Positions 27,373 through 35,037 of a DNA stretch of 35,125 bases are shown piece after piece. The stretch spans positions 1 to 35,125 of the forward strand of contig JAGGYQ010000026.1 in the NCBI GenBank assembly GCA_021162425.1, in the 5' to 3' direction. Each line of letters starts with the position of its first letter. Within the stretch, counting starts at the first letter, position 1. A program made the translations under genes and the position numbers. The DNA is from Candidatus Aenigmatarchaeota archaeon. GTDB taxonomy: Archaea > Aenigmatarchaeota > Aenigmatarchaeia > QMZP01 > QMZT01. The notes under the pieces were generated by a model. That model ran no database searches, was not told the DNA's origin, and worked only from the letters and a program-made list of their open reading frames with translations.

Positions 27373-28688
27373 GGAAAAATGTTTTAATAATGGGCGCTGC
27401 CGGAAGAGATTTTCACAACTTCAACATACTCTTCAGAAACAACAGAGAATACAACGTTGTTTGCTTCACAGCAGGACAGATACCAAACATAGCGAACAGG
27501 AGATATCCAAAAGAACTTACAGGTTACAAAAAAGGCATACCAATATACCCTGAAAAAAACATAAAAACAATTATAAAAAAATACAATATTCACGTCTGTA
27601 TCCTGTCCTATTCTGACCTCTCGTACAACGAAGTTATGAACAAGGCAAGTGATGTGAATTCTGCAGGATCGGATTTCCTCTTGGTAAGCCCATACAAGAC
27701 AATGATAAAGAGCAAAAGACCTACAATATCCGTTTGTGCCATTAGAACAGGCTGTGGAAAATCACAAACAACAAGAAAGATATGTTCGATTCTCAGAAAA
27801 ATGGGAATAAAAGCAGTCGTCATTCGACACCCAATGCCGTACGGTGATCTAAAAAAACAGATTGTCCAGAAATTCGCGAAAGAGGAAGACATGGAAAGAT
27901 ATAATTGCACAATAGAGGAAAGAGAGGAATATGAACAACACATAAAAAACGGGTTCACGGTGTTCGCTGGTGTGGATTATGAAAAAGTTTTAAAAGCAGC
28001 TGAAAAAGAGGCAGATGTTATTATATGGGACGGCGGGAACAACGACACACCTTTCATCAAACCAGACCTTCATATAGTCGTTGCAGACCCGTTCAGGCCA
28101 GAACATGCCATAAAATATTATCCAAGCGAGACAAACGTTGCAATGGCAGACGTCATCGTTATAAACAAAGAAAATACAGCAAAAAAACGCGAAATAAACA
28201 AGACGGTCGCGGTTGTTAAAAAAATAAATAAAAAAGCGATACTTATTCATGCTGACTCCGTTATAGAGGCAGAAGAACCATCTTTAATAAAGGGTAAGAA
28301 GGTCTTGGTCATCGAAGACGGTCCGACATTAACACACGGCGAAATGAGTTTTGGTGCTGGTTTTATAGCTGCAAAAAAATACAAAGCAAAGGCGATAGTT
28401 CAGCCAAAAAAATATGCGTGCGGCTCAATAAGGAAATTGTATGAGAAGTATCCGCATCTTCGGAATGTCTTGCCTGCAATGGGTTACAGCAAAGAACAGA
28501 TAAAAGATATGGAGAAAACCATAAATAGATCGCCATGCGATACGGTCGTTGTGGCAACGCCAGCCGACATCACAAAATTAATGAACATAAGAAAACCTGT
28601 TGTGAGGGTAAGTTATCATCTCAAAGAGAAGGGGGCTCCCAACCTCGAAGATGTTGTGAAGAGTTTTTTGAGGAGAATGAAAATCTAA
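27369..28688 (+). CDS. COG2403 protein, cyclic 2,3-diphosphoglycerate synthetase-like
   Basis: The 439-residue protein begins VLIMGAAGRDFHNFN and has the P-loop-like AIRTGCGKSQTTRKI (about 124-138), VIRHPMPYGDL, CTIEEREEYEQHIKNG, GVDYEKVLKAAEKEADVIIWDGGNND and DPFRPEHAIKYYPSETNV. These are the hallmarks of the COG2403 family, whose named member makes cyclic 2,3-diphosphoglycerate in methanogens; most members have no proven role. Start and acdA stop overlap (ATGA), indicating coupling with acyl-CoA synthetase, a context that suggests a role in energy or CoA/acyl-phosphate metabolism. It converges on the TrkA gene with a 4-bp overlap. Confidence 0.85.
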   Translation: MRKNVLIMGAAGRDFHNFNILFRNNREYNVVCFTAGQIPNIANRRYPKELTGYKKGIPIYPEKNIKTIIKKYNIHVCILSYSDLSYNEVMNKASDVNSAGSDFLLVSPYKTMIKSKRPTISVCAIRTGCGKSQTTRKICSILRKMGIKAVVIRHPMPYGDLKKQIVQKFAKEEDMERYNCTIEEREEYEQHIKNGFTVFAGVDYEKVLKAAEKEADVIIWDGGNNDTPFIKPDLHIVVADPFRPEHAIKYYPSETNVAMADVIVINKENTAKKREINKTVAVVKKINKKAILIHADSVIEAEEPSLIKGKKVLVIEDGPTLTHGEMSFGAGFIAAKKYKAKAIVQPKKYACGSIRKLYEKYPHLRNVLPAMGYSKEQIKDMEKTINRSPCDTVVVATPADITKLMNIRKPVVRVSYHLKEKGAPNLEDVVKSFLRRMKI

Positions 28689-29326
28689 AGCAGTTTCTCT
28701 ATTTTTCTTACCTCTTCAACAGGAGAGAAAATCGTGAGTATATCACCTTCTTTTACTTTCGTGTCAGGCTTTGGTATGAAACATTTGTCATCTCTGTACA
28801 CGAAGGCTACAACAAAATTTTTGGCAAATTCAGATATCTTCTTTCCTATAATTTTTGAGTCTTCTCTGACACTAACCTCAAAAACCTCTCCTTTACCACC
28901 CGCCACGATATTGCTCAACTGTTTCCCCGGCCTTTCAAGTGCCTGTTTGAAAGCAAGTACAGATAAACGAGTTGTATCTATTATGTTGCTGATGCCAATT
29001 TTTGTGAATATCGTTTCGTTCTCCGAGTTGTTGATTCTGGTTATGATGGTCGGGACATTTGCATTTTTTGCTATTTCGCAGACCATCAAGTTTGTTTTGT
29101 CATCTCCTGTTACTGCGACAACAGCGTCTACGTCCTGTATATTGGCATCTTTAAGTATATTTTTATTCGAGCCATCCCCATGAAGCACAAGGGCATCAAG
29201 TTTTTCAGCAAGTTCTTCCGCAAGCTTTTCATTTTTTTCAATAACAACAACATCGTGCTTTTCCTTTATCAGCAGCTGTGCCAATGCTTCTCCCAGCTTT
29301 CCACCACCAATTATCACAACTTTCAT
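28685..29326 (-). CDS. TrkA/RCK-type potassium transport regulatory protein
   Basis: The 213-residue protein has an N-terminal RCK/TrkA-N Rossmann domain (VVIIGGGKLGEALAQLL, VLHGDGSNKNILKDANIQDVDAVVAVTGDD, TIITRINN) and a C-terminal TrkA-C domain (about 135-213: GKGEVFEVSVREDSKIIGKKISEF...VKEGDILTIFSP). It binds NAD(H) or ATP and gates a Trk/Ktr-type K+ channel. The membrane partner is not in the window. A TTTAAATTT box and a GGGAG ribosome-binding sequence precede the ATG. Confidence 0.92.
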   Translation of the reverse strand: MKVVIIGGGKLGEALAQLLIKEKHDVVVIEKNEKLAEELAEKLDALVLHGDGSNKNILKDANIQDVDAVVAVTGDDKTNLMVCEIAKNANVPTIITRINNSENETIFTKIGISNIIDTTRLSVLAFKQALERPGKQLSNIVAGGKGEVFEVSVREDSKIIGKKISEFAKNFVVAFVYRDDKCFIPKPDTKVKEGDILTIFSPVEEVRKIEKLL

Positions 29327-29362: not shown

Positions 29363-29827
29363 TTACCATACAGTAACAGTTAATTTGCTTATTTTACCGT
29401 TAAGCAGACCTAACCGTTCGATACTTGCACTCGGTAGAGCCGGGGTTTTGCCACATGTAAATATCGTGTTGTTTGATGTGTTCAAGGTTATACTGATATC
29501 ATGCATCACCAATCCATACTCCCTTTTTTCATGCAAACCAAAATCATTTATCATTTTTGCGTAGCCGTTCCCGTTGCAGTAAATGTTCTGGAAATCCTGT
29601 ATTTTTGTTTGATTGAATACGTTCGCGTCTGATACCAGTGAGACAGGCGAATGTTCATTCATAAGCATTTCGGATATTTGCACGACCTTGTCATTAAGCC
29701 AGTCCTGATAAAAGTTAGCCGAAAACATACGAACATTCGTGTTCATATAGTTTATGGAATATAACACGACCGCAAAAAACAAAAGCCCCGCAACAAGGAA
29801 TTCGAATATAAATTGTCCTTTCATCAT
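29363..29827 (-). CDS. Type IV pilin-like protein with class III signal peptide
   Basis: Restarting the 230-residue track ORF at the ATG at 29827 gives 154 residues beginning MMKGQFIFEFLVAGLLFFAVVLYSINYMN. KG|QFIFE fits the archaeal prepilin peptidase motif (cleavage after Gly, Gln at +1, Glu at +5) followed by a hydrophobic assembly helix. The rest is extracytoplasmic with sequons NQT, NTS and NNT and a short beta-rich end. It may be a pilin, archaellin-like minor subunit or pseudopilin. It is divergent from the first lipoprotein gene with a shared AT-rich promoter at about 29851-29862. The upstream 76 codons of the track ORF are antisense to lipoprotein 1. Confidence 0.78.
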   Translation of the reverse strand: MMKGQFIFEFLVAGLLFFAVVLYSINYMNTNVRMFSANFYQDWLNDKVVQISEMLMNEHSPVSLVSDANVFNQTKIQDFQNIYCNGNGYAKMINDFGLHEKREYGLVMHDISITLNTSNNTIFTCGKTPALPSASIERLGLLNGKISKLTVTVW

Positions 29828-29850
29828 ATAGAAATACTTTGTTCGGAACG

Positions 29851-29862
29851 AATAAAAATAAA
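29851..29862. promoter_or_regulatory. Possible shared bidirectional TATA region
   Basis: AATAAAAATAAA (plus strand) lies about 28 nt from both the pilin-like start at 29827 and the lipoprotein start at 29886, reading as a TATA-like box in each direction. Confidence 0.4.
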
Positions 29863-29885
29863 TGGTTGACCAACAATTTATAATT

Positions 29886-30920
29886 ATGAAGGAAATGCTC
29901 ATCATTCTTCTTGTTGCCACAGGGCTTGTTTTCGTCTCTGGCTGCACAATACCTGGACTTGACGTTGATATACCCTTTCTCCCAGACATTTTCCCGGGAA
30001 CGCAGATGAAAGAAGAACGGCATGACATCGTAGCAATAGAGGCTTTGAGGGCCATACCGTCAACAATCGTGAGGTCTGGTCAAACAATAAGGCTACAATC
30101 ATTAATCAAGGACCTGCAAAAACCAGAATACGAACCTGTAAATGTTCGAGTTAACCTATACAACGATTGTGGGTTGTTTGATACAAGGCTAGAGCTGTGT
30201 TCAGGTGGATTAAAAAAGGGGGATACATGGTGTGAATTCAAAATGTACCCGCAATCAACAAATATAGTTGAATGGGTGATGAAGGCAAAAGATGTGAATG
30301 TTGAGACGCCATGTGATGTTGGAGTCATGGTTGAGTATTATTACAAGACACCCACCACGAGCTCTGCTACATTTGTCAACAAGCAGGAACTTGAAAGACT
30401 TGTCTCGAGCGGAAAGGGTGTAAAAGAGATAGGAAAGGCAGTAATAGGTGAAGGTCCGATTAAAACATACATTGAGGTCAAACCACAACCAATTGTGGTC
30501 GGCCCGGATGAAGAAGGCAGCGCTGTTTTAACATTCTGGGCTGAAAACAAAGGGGGCGGCTTGATAGATTCGATACCATACGAAAACGGTAACCTTGAAT
30601 TCGGTAATGTACCCGAAATGAATAGCCTTGGTTTCGACGTGAAGAAAAAGGTCTATATCACAATAAACGGAGATAATATAAAGACAGTCAGCGGAAAATC
30701 CATCGAAGAATGCGTAAAAGAGAAAATGAAAAGCAACGGTGATAAATATTCATTCTATTTAATAGGCAGAAAGACACCCAGATATTCGTGTTCAATCACA
30801 GCGAAAGATGCAACGCGCATAAAACAGGAAAAGACATATCAAATAACATCCGAAATAGGCTACTGGTATAAATTTACAAGAGAAATAAAACTGACAGTCC
30901 GGCCAAAAATACGACTGTAA
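29886..30920 (+). CDS. Tandem lipoprotein 1 (two-domain Ig-like family)
   Basis: The 344-residue protein begins MKEMLIILLVATGLVFVSGC, a lipoprotein signal with Cys20. The track start at 29862 is replaced by the ATG at 29886. The mature part has two beta-sandwich-like halves. Half one includes STIVRSGQTIRL and VMVEYYYKTPTTSSATFVNKQELERL; half two starts GPIKTYIEVKPQPIVVG and ends EIGYWYKFTREIKLTV. The same landmarks recur in the next three genes. It is the most divergent of the four. Function unknown; CARDB/Ig-like surface adhesion or envelope scaffolding is inference. Confidence 0.75.
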   Translation: MKEMLIILLVATGLVFVSGCTIPGLDVDIPFLPDIFPGTQMKEERHDIVAIEALRAIPSTIVRSGQTIRLQSLIKDLQKPEYEPVNVRVNLYNDCGLFDTRLELCSGGLKKGDTWCEFKMYPQSTNIVEWVMKAKDVNVETPCDVGVMVEYYYKTPTTSSATFVNKQELERLVSSGKGVKEIGKAVIGEGPIKTYIEVKPQPIVVGPDEEGSAVLTFWAENKGGGLIDSIPYENGNLEFGNVPEMNSLGFDVKKKVYITINGDNIKTVSGKSIEECVKEKMKSNGDKYSFYLIGRKTPRYSCSITAKDATRIKQEKTYQITSEIGYWYKFTREIKLTVRPKIRL

Positions 30921-30922
30921 AA

Positions 30923-30932
30923 GAATATAAAA
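30923..30932 (+). promoter_or_regulatory. TATA box for lipoprotein 2
   Basis: GAATATAAAA is centred about 27 nt upstream of the ATG at 30954. Confidence 0.45.
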
Positions 30933-30953
30933 CATTGCCTACAATAGTTTTTT

Positions 30954-31904
30954 ATGAAGCAAGCGTTGGATGGCATAAAATTCCTTTTGCTGTTATCTAC
31001 AGTATTCCTAGTTATCTTCTCTTCAGGATGTGTGACAACTGGGAAAGAGAGGACAGGCGGACCAGGTATAGTCATAGAGAAATTCGAGCCTAGCTTGTCG
31101 ATGATAGAGTCAGGGGAGCCCGTATCGTTGAGACTCGAAGTGAGAAATGTCGGCGGTTACAATAATGCGCCTGTGGTGGCGGAGATAATGGATATTGACC
31201 CGACAGAATGGCAGGTAAGTGGAGGGACAATACGAAGTTTAGGAACATTGCTCATGCCGGACCCAGAGTCAAACACACAGGGACAAAAAGCATCTGCAAC
31301 ATGGGATTTAATAGCGCCGTATCTTAAAAGAGGACAGGAACTTCCATATCAAGCGCGGGCAAGGGTATATTACTATTACGAAACTATAGCAACAAAGCCC
31401 GTGTGGTTTGTAACAACAGATGAACTCAGAAGAATTGTCAGGATGGGCGAGGCGCTTCCGAGCGAACCAACCATTTACACCAATGGTCCTTTGAGTGTGA
31501 CGATAGACGCTGGTCAATTCGTCAAGGCAAGAGAGTGGAGAGAATCAAAATTCCAGCTGCAGATAAGAATCGACAACAACGGCAACGGTCAGGTATTAGG
31601 TAGGAATTATCCGGTCGGTATTGAGGTGAAGTGGCCATCTTGGGTGACACCTGTCGGCGGCATGTGCCCGGCCCAGACAGTTACGCCGTTGTTTCAGGAT
31701 GTACCACCAGGATTACCACAACCGACAACAAGCAGATATATATTACTCTGGAATGGAAGATATGCAGACATCACATGTGAATTTATGATAACACAGCCGC
31801 CATCAAGCAGAACCAAAGGAAACTTTGAAGTGAAACTTGCCTACGATTATTTCACAGACGCGACGACCCAAATAACAGTAAAAGGAACAGAGGAGTATAT
31901 GTAA
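30954..31904 (+). CDS. Tandem lipoprotein 2 (two-domain Ig-like family)
   Basis: The 316-residue protein has a lipobox at FSSGC (Cys26). Family landmarks are GIVIEKFEPSLSMIESGEPVSLRLEVRNVGG, RVYYYYETIATKPVWFVTTDELRRI, GPLSVTIDAG and AYDYFTDATTQITVKG. The first half has the form of a CARDB/COG1361-like beta-sandwich (SGEPVSLRLEVRNVG). It lies 33 bp after lipoprotein 1 with its own TATA box. No catalytic motif is seen. It is followed by a T-rich stretch (CCCTTTTTTATTTGTTTTTT) that could terminate transcription. Confidence 0.78.
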   Translation: MKQALDGIKFLLLLSTVFLVIFSSGCVTTGKERTGGPGIVIEKFEPSLSMIESGEPVSLRLEVRNVGGYNNAPVVAEIMDIDPTEWQVSGGTIRSLGTLLMPDPESNTQGQKASATWDLIAPYLKRGQELPYQARARVYYYYETIATKPVWFVTTDELRRIVRMGEALPSEPTIYTNGPLSVTIDAGQFVKAREWRESKFQLQIRIDNNGNGQVLGRNYPVGIEVKWPSWVTPVGGMCPAQTVTPLFQDVPPGLPQPTTSRYILLWNGRYADITCEFMITQPPSSRTKGNFEVKLAYDYFTDATTQITVKGTEEYM

Positions 31905-31927
31905 ACCCTTTTTTATTTGTTTTTTCT
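31905..31927 (+). terminator. T-rich stretch after lipoprotein 2
   Basis: AACCCTTTTTTATTTGTTTTTTC immediately follows the stop codon. Archaeal termination needs only T runs, so it may act as a terminator; its AT-rich part also sits about 27 nt before the next ATG and may double as a TATA element. Confidence 0.35.
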
Positions 31928-31940
31928 CAATTATATAAAC

Positions 31941-32903
31941 ATGAGTAGGCGAATCTCTTTTTATGCAACGGCGTCTATCCTGTTATCTCTGATTCTCGTT
32001 TCTGGATGTGTTATACCTTCGCAGGAACCATTCGAAAGCAACACGCCGGTAGGCAGCGGTTTGGTGATAGAGTCATTCGGGTCTGATTTTCAAGAGGTTT
32101 ACGGAGGAGAAGAGGTCACGTTCAGGGTGAAATTCAAAAACACGGGGTCTGTGAAAGCGGAGGATGTATTTGCAGAACTGCTTGGGCTTGACCAGCTGTG
32201 GGAACCGGGAGAGAACACAATAGTGTATAACGGTGAGGTTTTGCCAGATGAACCGGAATGCAGATATACAATCCGAAAAGTAATGCTTTCCCCGCCAGAC
32301 CCCGAAAAGGGAATAGAGGGTGGGGAGAAGATTTGCACATGGCGTTACATCGCGCCACAAGTAAAGCTGTCGATTGTGGCTGAACCGCATGTGAGACTTT
32401 ATTACACATACAAAACACTTCTCTCAAAAGCCATAACTATAGTCCCGCAAAAAGAGCTTATTGACATGCAAAACCAAGGAGTCCCACTACCAACAGAGAC
32501 AGTAAGTGTGACAAAATCACCGATATCTTTTGATGTGACTGCGGATACGCCGATAAGGGCGTATGGTTCGAGTGTAACATTCCCAATAGTGATAAGAATA
32601 AATAACATAGGCGGCGGAACAGTATGCGGGAGTGATGGTTACTCATGCAAAAAACCAGGGCAAGAATGGAACCATTTCACGCTAGATATAAAACTTCCTG
32701 ACGGCTGGTCTTTTGAAACATGTAAAAACAAAGAGGAGATTTACCTTGCGCATGGGAAATCACAGACCATTACATGCAAGGTCCGTGTATCCACGCCTGT
32801 GACAGGTCTGCGCCAAGACATCGTTAAGGTTAGTGCGAGATATGGATATTTCATAGACAAGACCGGTTATGTCAAGGTTTTGCCATCTATAGCAAATCAA
32901 TAA
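31941..32903 (+). CDS. Tandem lipoprotein 3 (two-domain Ig-like family)
   Basis: The 320-residue protein begins MSRRISFYATASILLSLILVSGC (lipid Cys23); the track start at 31917 adds eight residues and lacks promoter support. Shared landmarks: GLVIESFGSDFQEVYGGEEVTFRVKFKNTGSVKAEDVFAELLGL, RLYYTYKTLLSKAITIVPQKELIDM, SPISFDVTADTPIRAYGS and RYGYFIDKTGYVKVLP. Extra cysteines (CGSDGYSC, FETC, ITC) may form disulfides outside the cell, a pattern shared with lipoprotein 4. Confidence 0.78.
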   Translation: MSRRISFYATASILLSLILVSGCVIPSQEPFESNTPVGSGLVIESFGSDFQEVYGGEEVTFRVKFKNTGSVKAEDVFAELLGLDQLWEPGENTIVYNGEVLPDEPECRYTIRKVMLSPPDPEKGIEGGEKICTWRYIAPQVKLSIVAEPHVRLYYTYKTLLSKAITIVPQKELIDMQNQGVPLPTETVSVTKSPISFDVTADTPIRAYGSSVTFPIVIRINNIGGGTVCGSDGYSCKKPGQEWNHFTLDIKLPDGWSFETCKNKEEIYLAHGKSQTITCKVRVSTPVTGLRQDIVKVSARYGYFIDKTGYVKVLPSIANQ

Positions 32904-32927
32904 AAATGTCATTAAGATAATTTAAAG

Positions 32928-33833
32928 ATGAGAAATATCTGTGCAGTTTTAATTACCATACTTCTTGCATTTTCTGTGTCAGGGTGTATAGCGCAAAAAG
33001 GAGCAGAACACAACGGGGTCATCATCGAGAAATTCGAGCCGGATTTAAAGGATGTCTTCTCAGGCGAAGATTTTCAAATGCTACTTATGGTGAGGAACAC
33101 AGGGTCATCGGTTGCGAGGAATGTTTACCCAGAGCTTTATAATGTTGGTGGTGTTCAGTCAGAGACCAGAATATCATGTGTAAAAAAGTCATGCGCATCT
33201 CCTTTTAACCTCTACCCACCAGACCAAGAAATAGGGACCACAGGCGAATCGCGCGTATGCGTCTGGCAATGCTCAGCACCCCCTGTCGAGAGAGGAATAT
33301 CTATGACATTTAACCCTGTTGTCCGTGTTTATTATGCATACGAGACAGATACAGTCAAAACCATAAATCTCGTGCTGCGTGATGAAATAAGAAATGTCAA
33401 TCTCGATAAACTTGAGCTGCCACCCGAAACAGCAACATCGACGAAAGGACCAATAAAGATAACGATTGTCACATCTGGCCCTATGAGATTCGCTAAAAAA
33501 CAGTCAGAGCTTATTTTTCCTGTTGAAATACTTGTGGAGAATGTTGGTCATGGAGTTGCATGCATCTCGGATTGTAAAACCTCACAGACGAACGAAAGAA
33601 ACAAAATAAGGCTCTATTTATCATCAAAAAGCATGAAATTTTACGACTGTGACTTGGAGAGAGGAGAGGCTGCCGTTGATTTATGGGAGGGAAAGACAAG
33701 CAAACTCACGTGCAGCGCTCATGTGTATGTCAATCCGAAATCAAAAATAATACAGAAGAGTATTGAGATAAAAGCGGAGTATGGATACTATATTGATAAA
33801 ACAACATCCATCCTTGTGAGAGGAATACAATGA
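32928..33833 (+). CDS. Tandem lipoprotein 4 (two-domain Ig-like family)
   Basis: The 301-residue protein has a lipobox at FSVSGC (Cys20). Shared landmarks: GVIIEKFEPDLKDVFSGEDFQMLLMVRNTGSSVARNVYPELYNV, RVYYAYETDTVKTINLVLRDEI, GPIKITIVTSGPMRF and EYGYYIDKTTSILVRG. It is cysteine-rich (ISCVKKSC, VCVWQC, ACISDC, YDC, TCSA), again pointing to extracellular disulfides. A TATA-like AATCAATAAAAA overlapping the previous stop codon lies about 25 nt upstream. It converges on the endonuclease Q gene with a 7-bp gap. Confidence 0.78.
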   Translation: MRNICAVLITILLAFSVSGCIAQKGAEHNGVIIEKFEPDLKDVFSGEDFQMLLMVRNTGSSVARNVYPELYNVGGVQSETRISCVKKSCASPFNLYPPDQEIGTTGESRVCVWQCSAPPVERGISMTFNPVVRVYYAYETDTVKTINLVLRDEIRNVNLDKLELPPETATSTKGPIKITIVTSGPMRFAKKQSELIFPVEILVENVGHGVACISDCKTSQTNERNKIRLYLSSKSMKFYDCDLERGEAAVDLWEGKTSKLTCSAHVYVNPKSKIIQKSIEIKAEYGYYIDKTTSILVRGIQ

Positions 33834-33840
33834 GCATTAG

Positions 33841-35037
33841 TCAACGCAAAACGAGTTTGCCGTAAACACCGTCGTAGCCTGGTTTTATTTCGATTCGCCC
33901 TTTCCTCATTTCATCAATGATTTGTGCGATTTTTTTGTTTGCTATATCTTCTATCTTACTTATGTCGTATGTCAAGAGAACGCAAAGTTCTGAGCCAGCC
34001 GCCGATATAAGACGGTTGTATATTTGCCATACAGTTTGCGATGTTATCCCTCTATTCATAACAGAAGATATGATTTCAGATAATGGAAGCAATCTTATGA
34101 ACATTTTTGCGTTCTTTGGCCTGTATCCTTCTGGTCTGTCCGCAAGCTCCTCTACTCTGTGAAGCACACCTATGGTTAACGGCTTGCCACAGACAGGGCA
34201 TACGTTGTGGTATTTCTTGGACAATTTCGGGGGCAAACACACACCGCATTCCCTATGCCCGTCATAGTGATATTTTCCGTAGTTTGGGTCAACTTCTATT
34301 GTTCCAATAAGGCCGTTCTTCGTTATTATGGCATTCGTCAGATTTTCGTATGTGAGCCTTTCGAGCTCGAATATTGTTGCCTCTCTACCGATTCGCCACG
34401 GCCAAAACGAATGTGCGTCAGAGAATGAAACCAAGGCAAATCCATCCCACTTACTCACCCGCCATATCATTGGTGGGTCAGCACTTAACCCTGTTTCCAA
34501 CGCATAGATATGCTTGGCTTGGTCATGAAAACATTCCTCTACGCTGTCAAAACCAGATTTGCTACCAAACACAGAAAACCACGGGGTGAGACAATGCGAA
34601 GGTATTATCATTATTCGTTTTGAAATCCCTATCAAATTTTCAACCAGTTCAGGGCAACTGAAACCAAAAACAGGCCGACCATCATAGTCGAGTCTTCCTT
34701 TTTTGGACAACCAAGAGTTTATCTGTTCAACTGTCTCGAAATCAGGCGCAAGAATGATATTATGTATCTTTCTTATCTTACCTTTCTCCTTGTATATATT
34801 GGAGACTTCGGTTGACAATATGAAATTGAAACCTTCCCTGCTTTTAAGAATTCCACAACCCTCATCTCTCAAATTTTCTTTTAAAATTTTCAGCCATACA
34901 GGATGTGTAAAGTCACCAGTTCCTATTATGTCCAATCCCTTAATTTTTGCATATTTTACAAGGTTGTTGATTGTGATATTTTTACTTGTTGCACGAGAGA
35001 ATCGGGAGTGTATATGGAGATCAGCGATGAATCTCAT
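33841..35037 (-). CDS. Endonuclease Q-like PHP-domain DNA repair nuclease
   Basis: The 398-residue PHP-family protein has HxH in IADLHIHSRFSRATS, IIGTGDFTHP, LSTEVSNIY, IIPSHCLTPWFSVFGSKSG and SFSDAHSFWPWRIG, then a zinc ribbon with CGVCLPP...CPVCGKPL and a C-terminal domain. This order matches archaeal endonuclease Q (COG1379), which nicks DNA 5' to deaminated bases (uracil, hypoxanthine) and abasic sites. Length is close to characterised members (about 420). It begins 33 nt after the end of the tRNA gene on the same strand, with a TTTTTAACC box at about -27. Confidence 0.88.
   Translation of the reverse strand: MRFIADLHIHSRFSRATSKNITINNLVKYAKIKGLDIIGTGDFTHPVWLKILKENLRDEGCGILKSREGFNFILSTEVSNIYKEKGKIRKIHNIILAPDFETVEQINSWLSKKGRLDYDGRPVFGFSCPELVENLIGISKRIMIIPSHCLTPWFSVFGSKSGFDSVEECFHDQAKHIYALETGLSADPPMIWRVSKWDGFALVSFSDAHSFWPWRIGREATIFELERLTYENLTNAIITKNGLIGTIEVDPNYGKYHYDGHRECGVCLPPKLSKKYHNVCPVCGKPLTIGVLHRVEELADRPEGYRPKNAKMFIRLLPLSEIISSVMNRGITSQTVWQIYNRLISAAGSELCVLLTYDISKIEDIANKKIAQIIDEMRKGRIEIKPGYDGVYGKLVLR

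Follow-up and report, generated by a model that had tools for sequence, protein, structure and literature searches.

Four tandem lipoprotein genes in a 35,125-nt stretch of a Candidatus Aenigmatarchaeota archaeon (the window; contig JAGGYQ010000026.1 of GCA_021162425.1, forward-strand coordinates throughout) belong, by sequence comparison, to an old and nearly universal family of the phylum, whose more constant partners are a multi-transmembrane protein (TMLP) and a DUF63 protein rather than the adjoining pilin-like gene. The anatomy of the system is well supported; as to function, we infer, with a probability of about 0.45, that the lipoproteins, TMLP and DUF63 make up a complex of the envelope or for cell contact, which probably serves a pilus. 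The lipoprotein (LP) family is found in 56 of 61 relatives (it is missing in the other 5), in 100 of 115 sampled genomes of the phylum and in 37 of the 39 best genomes, so that the "lineage-specific" system of a first-pass annotation is far more widespread than supposed, and close relatives have the same genes at the locus, not the unrelated ones that would have told against it. The constant four-copy state is the only feature peculiar to the window's family. A single scan beyond the sampled genomes, with strict patterns, yielded two loci, one (L036) on a contig apparently identical to G006:C175 and the other (L037) in an archaeon with four tandem LP copies. The array occurs once in its own genome; the sole extra match, considered as a fifth copy (G000:C35, E 0.015), proved to be a general CARDB-type surface protein.

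The four genes lie back to back on the + strand and encode predicted lipoproteins with a lipobox of VSGC or SSGC in each: LP1, first of the array (344 aa, 29886..30920), LP2 (316 aa, 30954..31904), LP3 (320 aa, 31941..32903, with one marginal NPCBM_assoc/NEW3 match) and LP4 (301 aa, 32928..33833). Lipobox and N-terminal signal are present in all four and in 113 of 124 cluster members, and most of the 11 members that lack a lipobox are TMLPs or proteins with a miscalled start. The paralogy of LP2-LP4 extends through their full length, with 27-29% identity in BLAST local alignments (E 1e-27 to 1e-39), 29-31% identity of LP2 and LP3 to LP4 in a multiple alignment, and Smith-Waterman z of 37-57 against shuffles. 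Pairwise, LP1 is barely related to the others (best E 5e-5, z 4-8) and has only degenerate versions of the landmarks by which four tandem paralogues had been recognized; that description is clear for LP2-LP4, and LP1 is a remote member, whose homology becomes secure only when profiles built from the orthologue alignments are compared with each other (prob 99.5, E 1e-22 against the LP2-4 type). Local duplication was correctly proposed as the origin of the array but it is not recent, since the split between the LP1 and LP2-4 types predates the class (SH-aLRT 99). The paralogues are orthologous by position, with order-wide clades of LP1 (SH-aLRT 97) and LP2 (SH-aLRT 98), and their sequence in the array and identity are retained throughout the taxonomic order. 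The TATA-like box attributed to each gene is found at the expected distance only for LP2 (TATAAAA, 30926..30932, + strand, 28 bp upstream of its start), where it is kept in 7/9 members of the window's family, as compared to 1/9, 2/9 and 1/9 for LP1, LP3 and LP4 and a baseline of 5% among all windows of equal length. The two domains anticipated by the first-pass annotation are seen in the AlphaFold2 model of LP4 as two beta-sandwich, predicted Ig-like domains (residues ~31-150 and 176-298, mean pLDDT 82), for which Foldseek returned generic tandem Ig matches only, at low TM-scores. An origin of domain 2 as an internal copy of domain 1 is not supported (hhalign prob 19.5), and sequence searches gave no solved homologue for LP or for TMLP.

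TMLP carries the LP two-domain module at its C-terminal side (prob 97.7, E 2e-12 against LP), and its profile has matches in 51 of 61 relatives, some of these being of LP1 type; the copy of the window's own genome is at G000:C49. The usual neighbour of TMLP is DUF63 (PF01889), a 6-TM protein (215.1 bits against a cut-off of 25 for the G000:C49 copy) that occurs once per genome in nearly all relatives (54/61) and, among 14 control genomes, in three archaea only; it was not matched in six LP-bearing relatives, two of them at least 90% complete. With linkage defined as a distance within 10 kb and observed genome counts compared to expected ones, LP and TMLP are linked in 15 of 45 genomes from 8 families (1.0 expected), LP and DUF63 in 16 of 50 from 7 families (1.1 expected), and TMLP and DUF63 in 28 of 40 from 9 families (0.9 expected). 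DUF63 is the divergent neighbour of the LP array in several families. TMLPs of seven genomes in two families (f4 and f6) end, in the same open frame, in an SLT lytic-transglycosylase domain (PF01464; 32-60 bits against a cut-off of 21.3 in the four TMLPs scanned); the own-genome TMLP is without this domain, and archaeal control genomes have none.

The divergent neighbour in the window, the type IV pilin-like protein PIL (29363..29827, - strand), is separated from LP1 by a 58-bp gap (29828..29885) and begins MMKGQFIFEF, a class III signal of the form [KR][GA]/Q...E with predicted cleavage at KG/Q, Glu at +5 and a following hydrophobic stretch; Q5 and E9 are invariant and K3 nearly so among 13 orthologues. 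Its AlphaFold2 model has a pilin-type architecture, with a helix at 2-55 followed mainly by strands (pLDDT 75). No pilin was among the Foldseek matches in the PDB, which were uninformative, and no pilin profile of Pfam or NCBIfam exceeded its cut-off (best DUF7287, 16.2 against 27; none in NCBIfam). PIL is the orthologue of the last gene in a class-wide pilus operon (pilins-ATPase-TadC-TadC-PIL) and lies right behind the second TadC in seven families (f5, f6, f7, f8, f12, f15 and f16). DUF63 takes up this place in f1 and f2, and the own genome has on C49 an archaeal type IV pilus operon of two pilin-like genes, T2SSE and two T2SSF, followed by DUF63. In f5 the order is contiguous, TMLP-DUF63-LP-PHP-thermosome-pilins-ATPase-TadC-TadC and finally PIL, and outgroup gene order marks this arrangement as ancestral. 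A single inversion of the block from DUF63 and LP through the pilus operon to PIL would yield the window's order, with one end point predicted from gene orders in the PIL/LP1 gap; the position of PIL here is derived, the gene being the displaced last one of the pilus operon. Trees instead group f5 with f2 (SH-aLRT 95-99), and a tree uniting f1, f2 and f4, in which some proteins such as that of G005 are misassigned, narrowly escapes rejection (AU p 0.053); f5 may have inverted back, or inversions may have occurred in parallel. The PIL-LP1 adjacency is retained in f1 and f4, and in f2 with small genes between. A pilus association of the array, as first proposed, is still plausible, but because PIL is a displaced operon gene its adjacency is no ground for it. 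An inversion can produce a misleading "pilin beside lipoproteins" neighbourhood, and this locus is a case in point. Two further neighbours are kept outside the proposed system: a TrkA-type NAD-binding protein on the left in f1 and f2 (28685..29326, - strand), and a TIGR00375-like PHP-domain protein on the right (33841..35037, - strand; 224.9 bits, under the model cut-off of 326.6) that adjoins the array in 25 of 41 neighbourhoods.

In the proposed complex LP1-LP4 would be lipid-anchored, outward-facing subunits of an ancient Aenigmatarchaeota envelope structure, and the lipoproteins and the TMLP ectodomain, side by side, may form a surface stalk or collar built of several paralogues. This could surround or flank the type IV pilus and serve attachment to another cell, with DUF63 possibly acting in insertion or maturation of the lipoproteins and TMLP; depending on lineage, a complex with an SLT-bearing TMLP might cut murein if the partner is a bacterium. 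For Aenigmatarchaeota, DPANN archaea with small genomes, little is known of the partners or of how contact is made. The lipoproteins are good candidates for contact machinery because they are near-universal in the phylum and ancestrally beside pilus genes, and a surface complex of this kind, uncharacterised and tied to pilus genes, offers a concrete and testable candidate for such contact. The "cell-contact apparatus" of the first-pass annotation is still a reasonable inference, strengthened by TMLP and by the transglycosylase domains fused to it, which suggest that some partners might be bacteria. A more specific version, a contact apparatus common to the phylum in which a collar of at most four lipid-anchored Ig-like proteins rings TMLP as a membrane channel or sensor, acts with the pilus and in several lineages bears an outward murein-cutting domain for opening a bacterial wall, is a speculative and rather unlikely one.

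The lipoproteins and TMLP could instead be a general envelope scaffold, tethering or spacing the S-layer and not particularly connected to the pilus, in which case the neighbourhood would reflect inherited order in small genomes. The near-universal occurrence of the lipoproteins and the Ig-like folds typical of structural surface proteins fit such a role, and proximity of the array to the pilus operon is limited to f5 and f8, within 10 kb of the pilus ATPase to f5 (5 genomes against 3.0 expected). Thermosome, PHP and eRF1 housekeeping genes move within the same block, which speaks against a pilus-linked complex, the conserved order being possibly passive; so do the five relatives without LP and the six LP-bearing ones without a DUF63 match. 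The scaffold is nonetheless the less probable reading, as DUF63 stands at the pilus operon end in f1 and f2, several TMLPs have an enzyme domain that is needless for the scaffold of a murein-free cell, and a plain coat does not need fixed paralogue identities.

A lipoprotein-maturation locus, with DUF63 as the processing membrane enzyme, the lipoproteins as its main substrates and the array's own job a separate matter, agrees with the single-copy occurrence of DUF63, its scarcity among controls and its divergent position next to the array. The Haloferax paralogues AliA and AliB may be DUF63 proteins, a tentative assignment that leaves the case weaker. Archaea are without homologues of the bacterial lipoprotein enzymes, AliA and AliB being crucial for lipidation in Haloferax (PMC12186497), and one Haloferax protein, HVO_2859, belongs to DUF63 (PMC9426492). 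Against this, DUF63 also occurs in genomes without detected lipoproteins (G044 and G055), and the explanation is judged improbable. That pilin and lipoproteins form a lineage-specific unit made by local duplication, one apparatus encoded by divergent neighbours, draws on the f1, f2 and f4 adjacencies but is already refuted on age and on adjacency as ancestral state, given a phylum-wide LP family, PIL at the pilus operon end in seven families and DUF63 beside the array in most of them.

The LP proteins are not covered by any family of Pfam or NCBIfam: CARDB (PF07705) reaches at best 13.9 bits against a cut-off of 22.7, and 3 of 12 members show traces of it (E 0.1 or less), which argues against the generic CARDB expansion considered earlier, and NPCBM_assoc/NEW3 (PF10633) is passed by LP3 alone (25.2 against 24.4; 1/12 members). 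Solute- or glycan-binding lipoproteins supplying a transporter, which these resemblances might suggest, are hardly credible when no transporter-like cluster recurs near the array, the LP4 model lacks a binding-protein fold and the multi-TM TMLP contains the same module.

CARDB and NEW3 share with the lipoproteins the character of extracellular beta-sandwich, Ig-like domains and match them sporadically and weakly, but neither family includes lipoproteins of two domains whose paralogues hold fixed positions and that have a TMLP relative. RbmA, integrin alpha legs and other tandem Ig/FnIII adhesins have, as LP4, two successive beta-sandwich domains; TM-scores of ~0.1-0.25 over the query indicate a common fold class only. 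The array-linked operon resembles the haloarchaeal PilB3-PilC3 type IV pilus locus in its ATPase (T2SSE, PF00437), two T2SSF (PF00482) and small pilin-like proteins, the latter weakly similar to DUF7266 and DUF7287 of that locus; PilB3_C (PF23989) is likewise a weak match, and all three stay below their cut-offs. Lipoproteins, TMLP and DUF63 are not known as components of the haloarchaeal locus. For the murein transglycosylases reported from Woesearchaeota (PMC9723730) and the bacteria-killing peptidoglycan hydrolases of archaea (PMC12352652), the available passages of these papers mention neither a lipoprotein array nor fusion to a TMLP-like membrane protein. The same passages portray enzymes that, like the TMLP-SLT fusions, place murein-cutting domains in murein-free archaea, with attack on bacteria proposed or shown.

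The four lipoproteins LP1 to LP4, each with a lipobox (344, 316, 320 and 301 residues), stand in tandem on the plus strand at 29886-33833 of the window, contig C65 in an archaeal genome that measures 0.95 Mb and is 92.6% complete. To the left of LP1, divergent and 58 bp apart, is the type IV pilin-like protein PIL (29363..29827, minus strand; 154 residues, N-terminus MMKGQFIFEF). LP2, LP3 and LP4 are paralogues along their full length; LP1 is so divergent as to be barely detectable by pairwise comparison, and orthologue alignments match at E 1e-22. The landmarks that the first-pass annotation took to be shared by all four are present in LP2-LP4 and degenerate in LP1, and the TATA-like box that it gave to each gene is found for LP2 and not for LP1, LP3 or LP4. 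Adjacent genes of the array are separated by 24-36 bp, a spacing consistent with co-transcription of LP2-LP4.

The duplication had been read as lineage-specific, but the LP family is a conserved phylum trait: a profile built from LP2-LP4 finds it in 56 of 61 relatives, and one including LP1 in 100/115 genomes sampled across the phylum, all from one class, and in 37 of the 39 most complete. Four copies are present in 9/9 genomes of the window's family (f1), mostly three in the order's other families, and mostly one to four in the remaining class. In the tree, the order's first-position LPs cluster (SH-aLRT 97), as do its second-position LPs (98), and third- and fourth-position LPs cluster together (76); at the deepest split (99), first-position types part from all others across families of the class. 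The paralogues are thus old and faithful to position, not the product of a recent local burst. A homologue also occurs in a Candidatus Aenigmatarchaeota MAG (L036). The sole match in the named collection lacking the Aenigmatarchaeota label is archaeon CSMAG_334, with four homologues in tandem on a 4-kb contig (L037:292-4000). The largest expansion observed is that of a class relative, G091, with seven LP-family matches, several of which share contig C38 and lie in open frames of at most 612 aa.

AlphaFold2, run on 12 sequences, models LP4 (pLDDT 82, pTM 0.75) with an N-terminal signal helix followed by two beta-sandwich domains, residues ~31-150 and 176-298, for which Foldseek returns generic tandem Ig/FnIII proteins alone, with low TM-scores. 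No Pfam or NCBIfam family covers LP1-LP4; CARDB falls under its cut-off, and that of NEW3 is passed marginally, by LP3 alone.

PIL has orthologues in 56/61 relatives, and in f5, f6, f7, f8, f12, f15 and f16 the DNA has the same-strand order pilin-like genes, ATPase, T2SSF, T2SSF, PIL. PIL thus closes the pilus operon, and its adjacency to the LPs is secondary. In most cases, class-wide, an unexpected constant neighbour, a thermosome gene with a small coiled-coil gene, precedes the operon (L101-L109, L116, L117). The f5 order is TMLP> DUF63< LP> LP> LP> PHP< thermosome> ... ATPase> T2SSF> T2SSF> PIL>, with the LP array contiguous with the operon; in f8 the two are more loosely placed (~13-20 kb). 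A single inversion with ends at DUF63/LP1 and at the second T2SSF/PIL would turn this into the f1 order, although the number of events may differ. The predicted outcome is matched exactly, with DUF63 adjoining T2SSF and PIL divergent from LP1. Contig C49 of the window's own genome reads pilin-like, pilin-like, T2SSE ATPase, T2SSF, T2SSF, DUF63, then convergent TMLP. Since outgroups have both f5 adjacencies, the window's gene order is derived.

Comparison with neighbourhoods in 39 other genomes shows that the site of PIL in f1, f2 and f4 is occupied in f5, f6, f8, f12, f13 and f15 by the membrane protein DUF63 (PF01889, 162.6 bits), past which, in several families, stands the large multi-TM TMLP. 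The C-terminal part of TMLP is an LP-type two-domain module (prob 97.7, E 2e-12). The own-genome TMLP (L078:7919-11572, on C49) has 1217 aa, ~seven TM segments and CxxC pairs in its N-terminal region; matches occur in 51/61 relatives, a minority being merely weak matches to LP1-type genes. Pairs lie within 10 kb in 15/45 genomes for LP-TMLP, 16/50 for LP-DUF63 and 28/40 for TMLP-DUF63, each against about one expected by a simple uniform-placement estimate, with seven to nine families of related, non-independent genomes feeding each count. In f4, f5, f8 and f12 a one-TM protein of ~380 aa (cluster 7; L050:16581-17840 and relatives), for which no family match was found, often has an eRF1-like gene on one side and TMLP or DUF63 on the other.

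The LPs and the TMLP ectodomain may pack at the cell surface into a stalk or collar of several paralogues, serving attachment, most likely together with the pilus, and DUF63 would act in maturation or membrane assembly of the LPs and TMLP. The observations behind this proposed function are the lipid-anchor signals, the modelled Ig-like double domains, the module-sharing membrane protein, the DUF63 and TMLP linkage far above chance and the contiguity with the pilus operon in f5, looser in f8. The fidelity of the paralogues to position argues that each has its own place in a single structure, as opposed to their being coat proteins that could stand in for one another. The original observation was largely right, and the adjacent pilin that prompted its reading is the weakest piece of evidence; as a conserved phylum trait with unexplained partner proteins, the feature is of more interest than a lineage-specific duplication.

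In seven genomes (f4, f6) the TMLP frame runs on into an SLT lytic-transglycosylase domain; proteins of this kind include L092:7777-12153, L096:1618-6255, L084:5515-9426, L123:500-2926 and L074:1468-6300. SLT is found in 23/61 relatives and is absent from all archaeal control genomes. The own-genome TMLP is without it; a separate SLT protein, whose N-terminus is hydrophobic and resembles that of a pilin, is encoded elsewhere in that genome (contig C2, L118:6166-7206). With L119:4971-5978, L120:4913-5869, L125:2576-3481, L126:3402-4367 and L127:1248-2345 it belongs to a distinct gene group of f1 and f4, which may form a second system, similar to a pilus or secretion apparatus and including a part that cuts cell walls. 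Because archaea are without murein, the target of SLT would be a bacterial wall. The excerpts available of PMC9723730 and PMC12352652 do not mention a fusion of the TMLP-SLT type; those of the former report murein transglycosylases in Woesearchaeota, and those of the latter describe, in other archaea, peptidoglycan hydrolases that kill bacteria.
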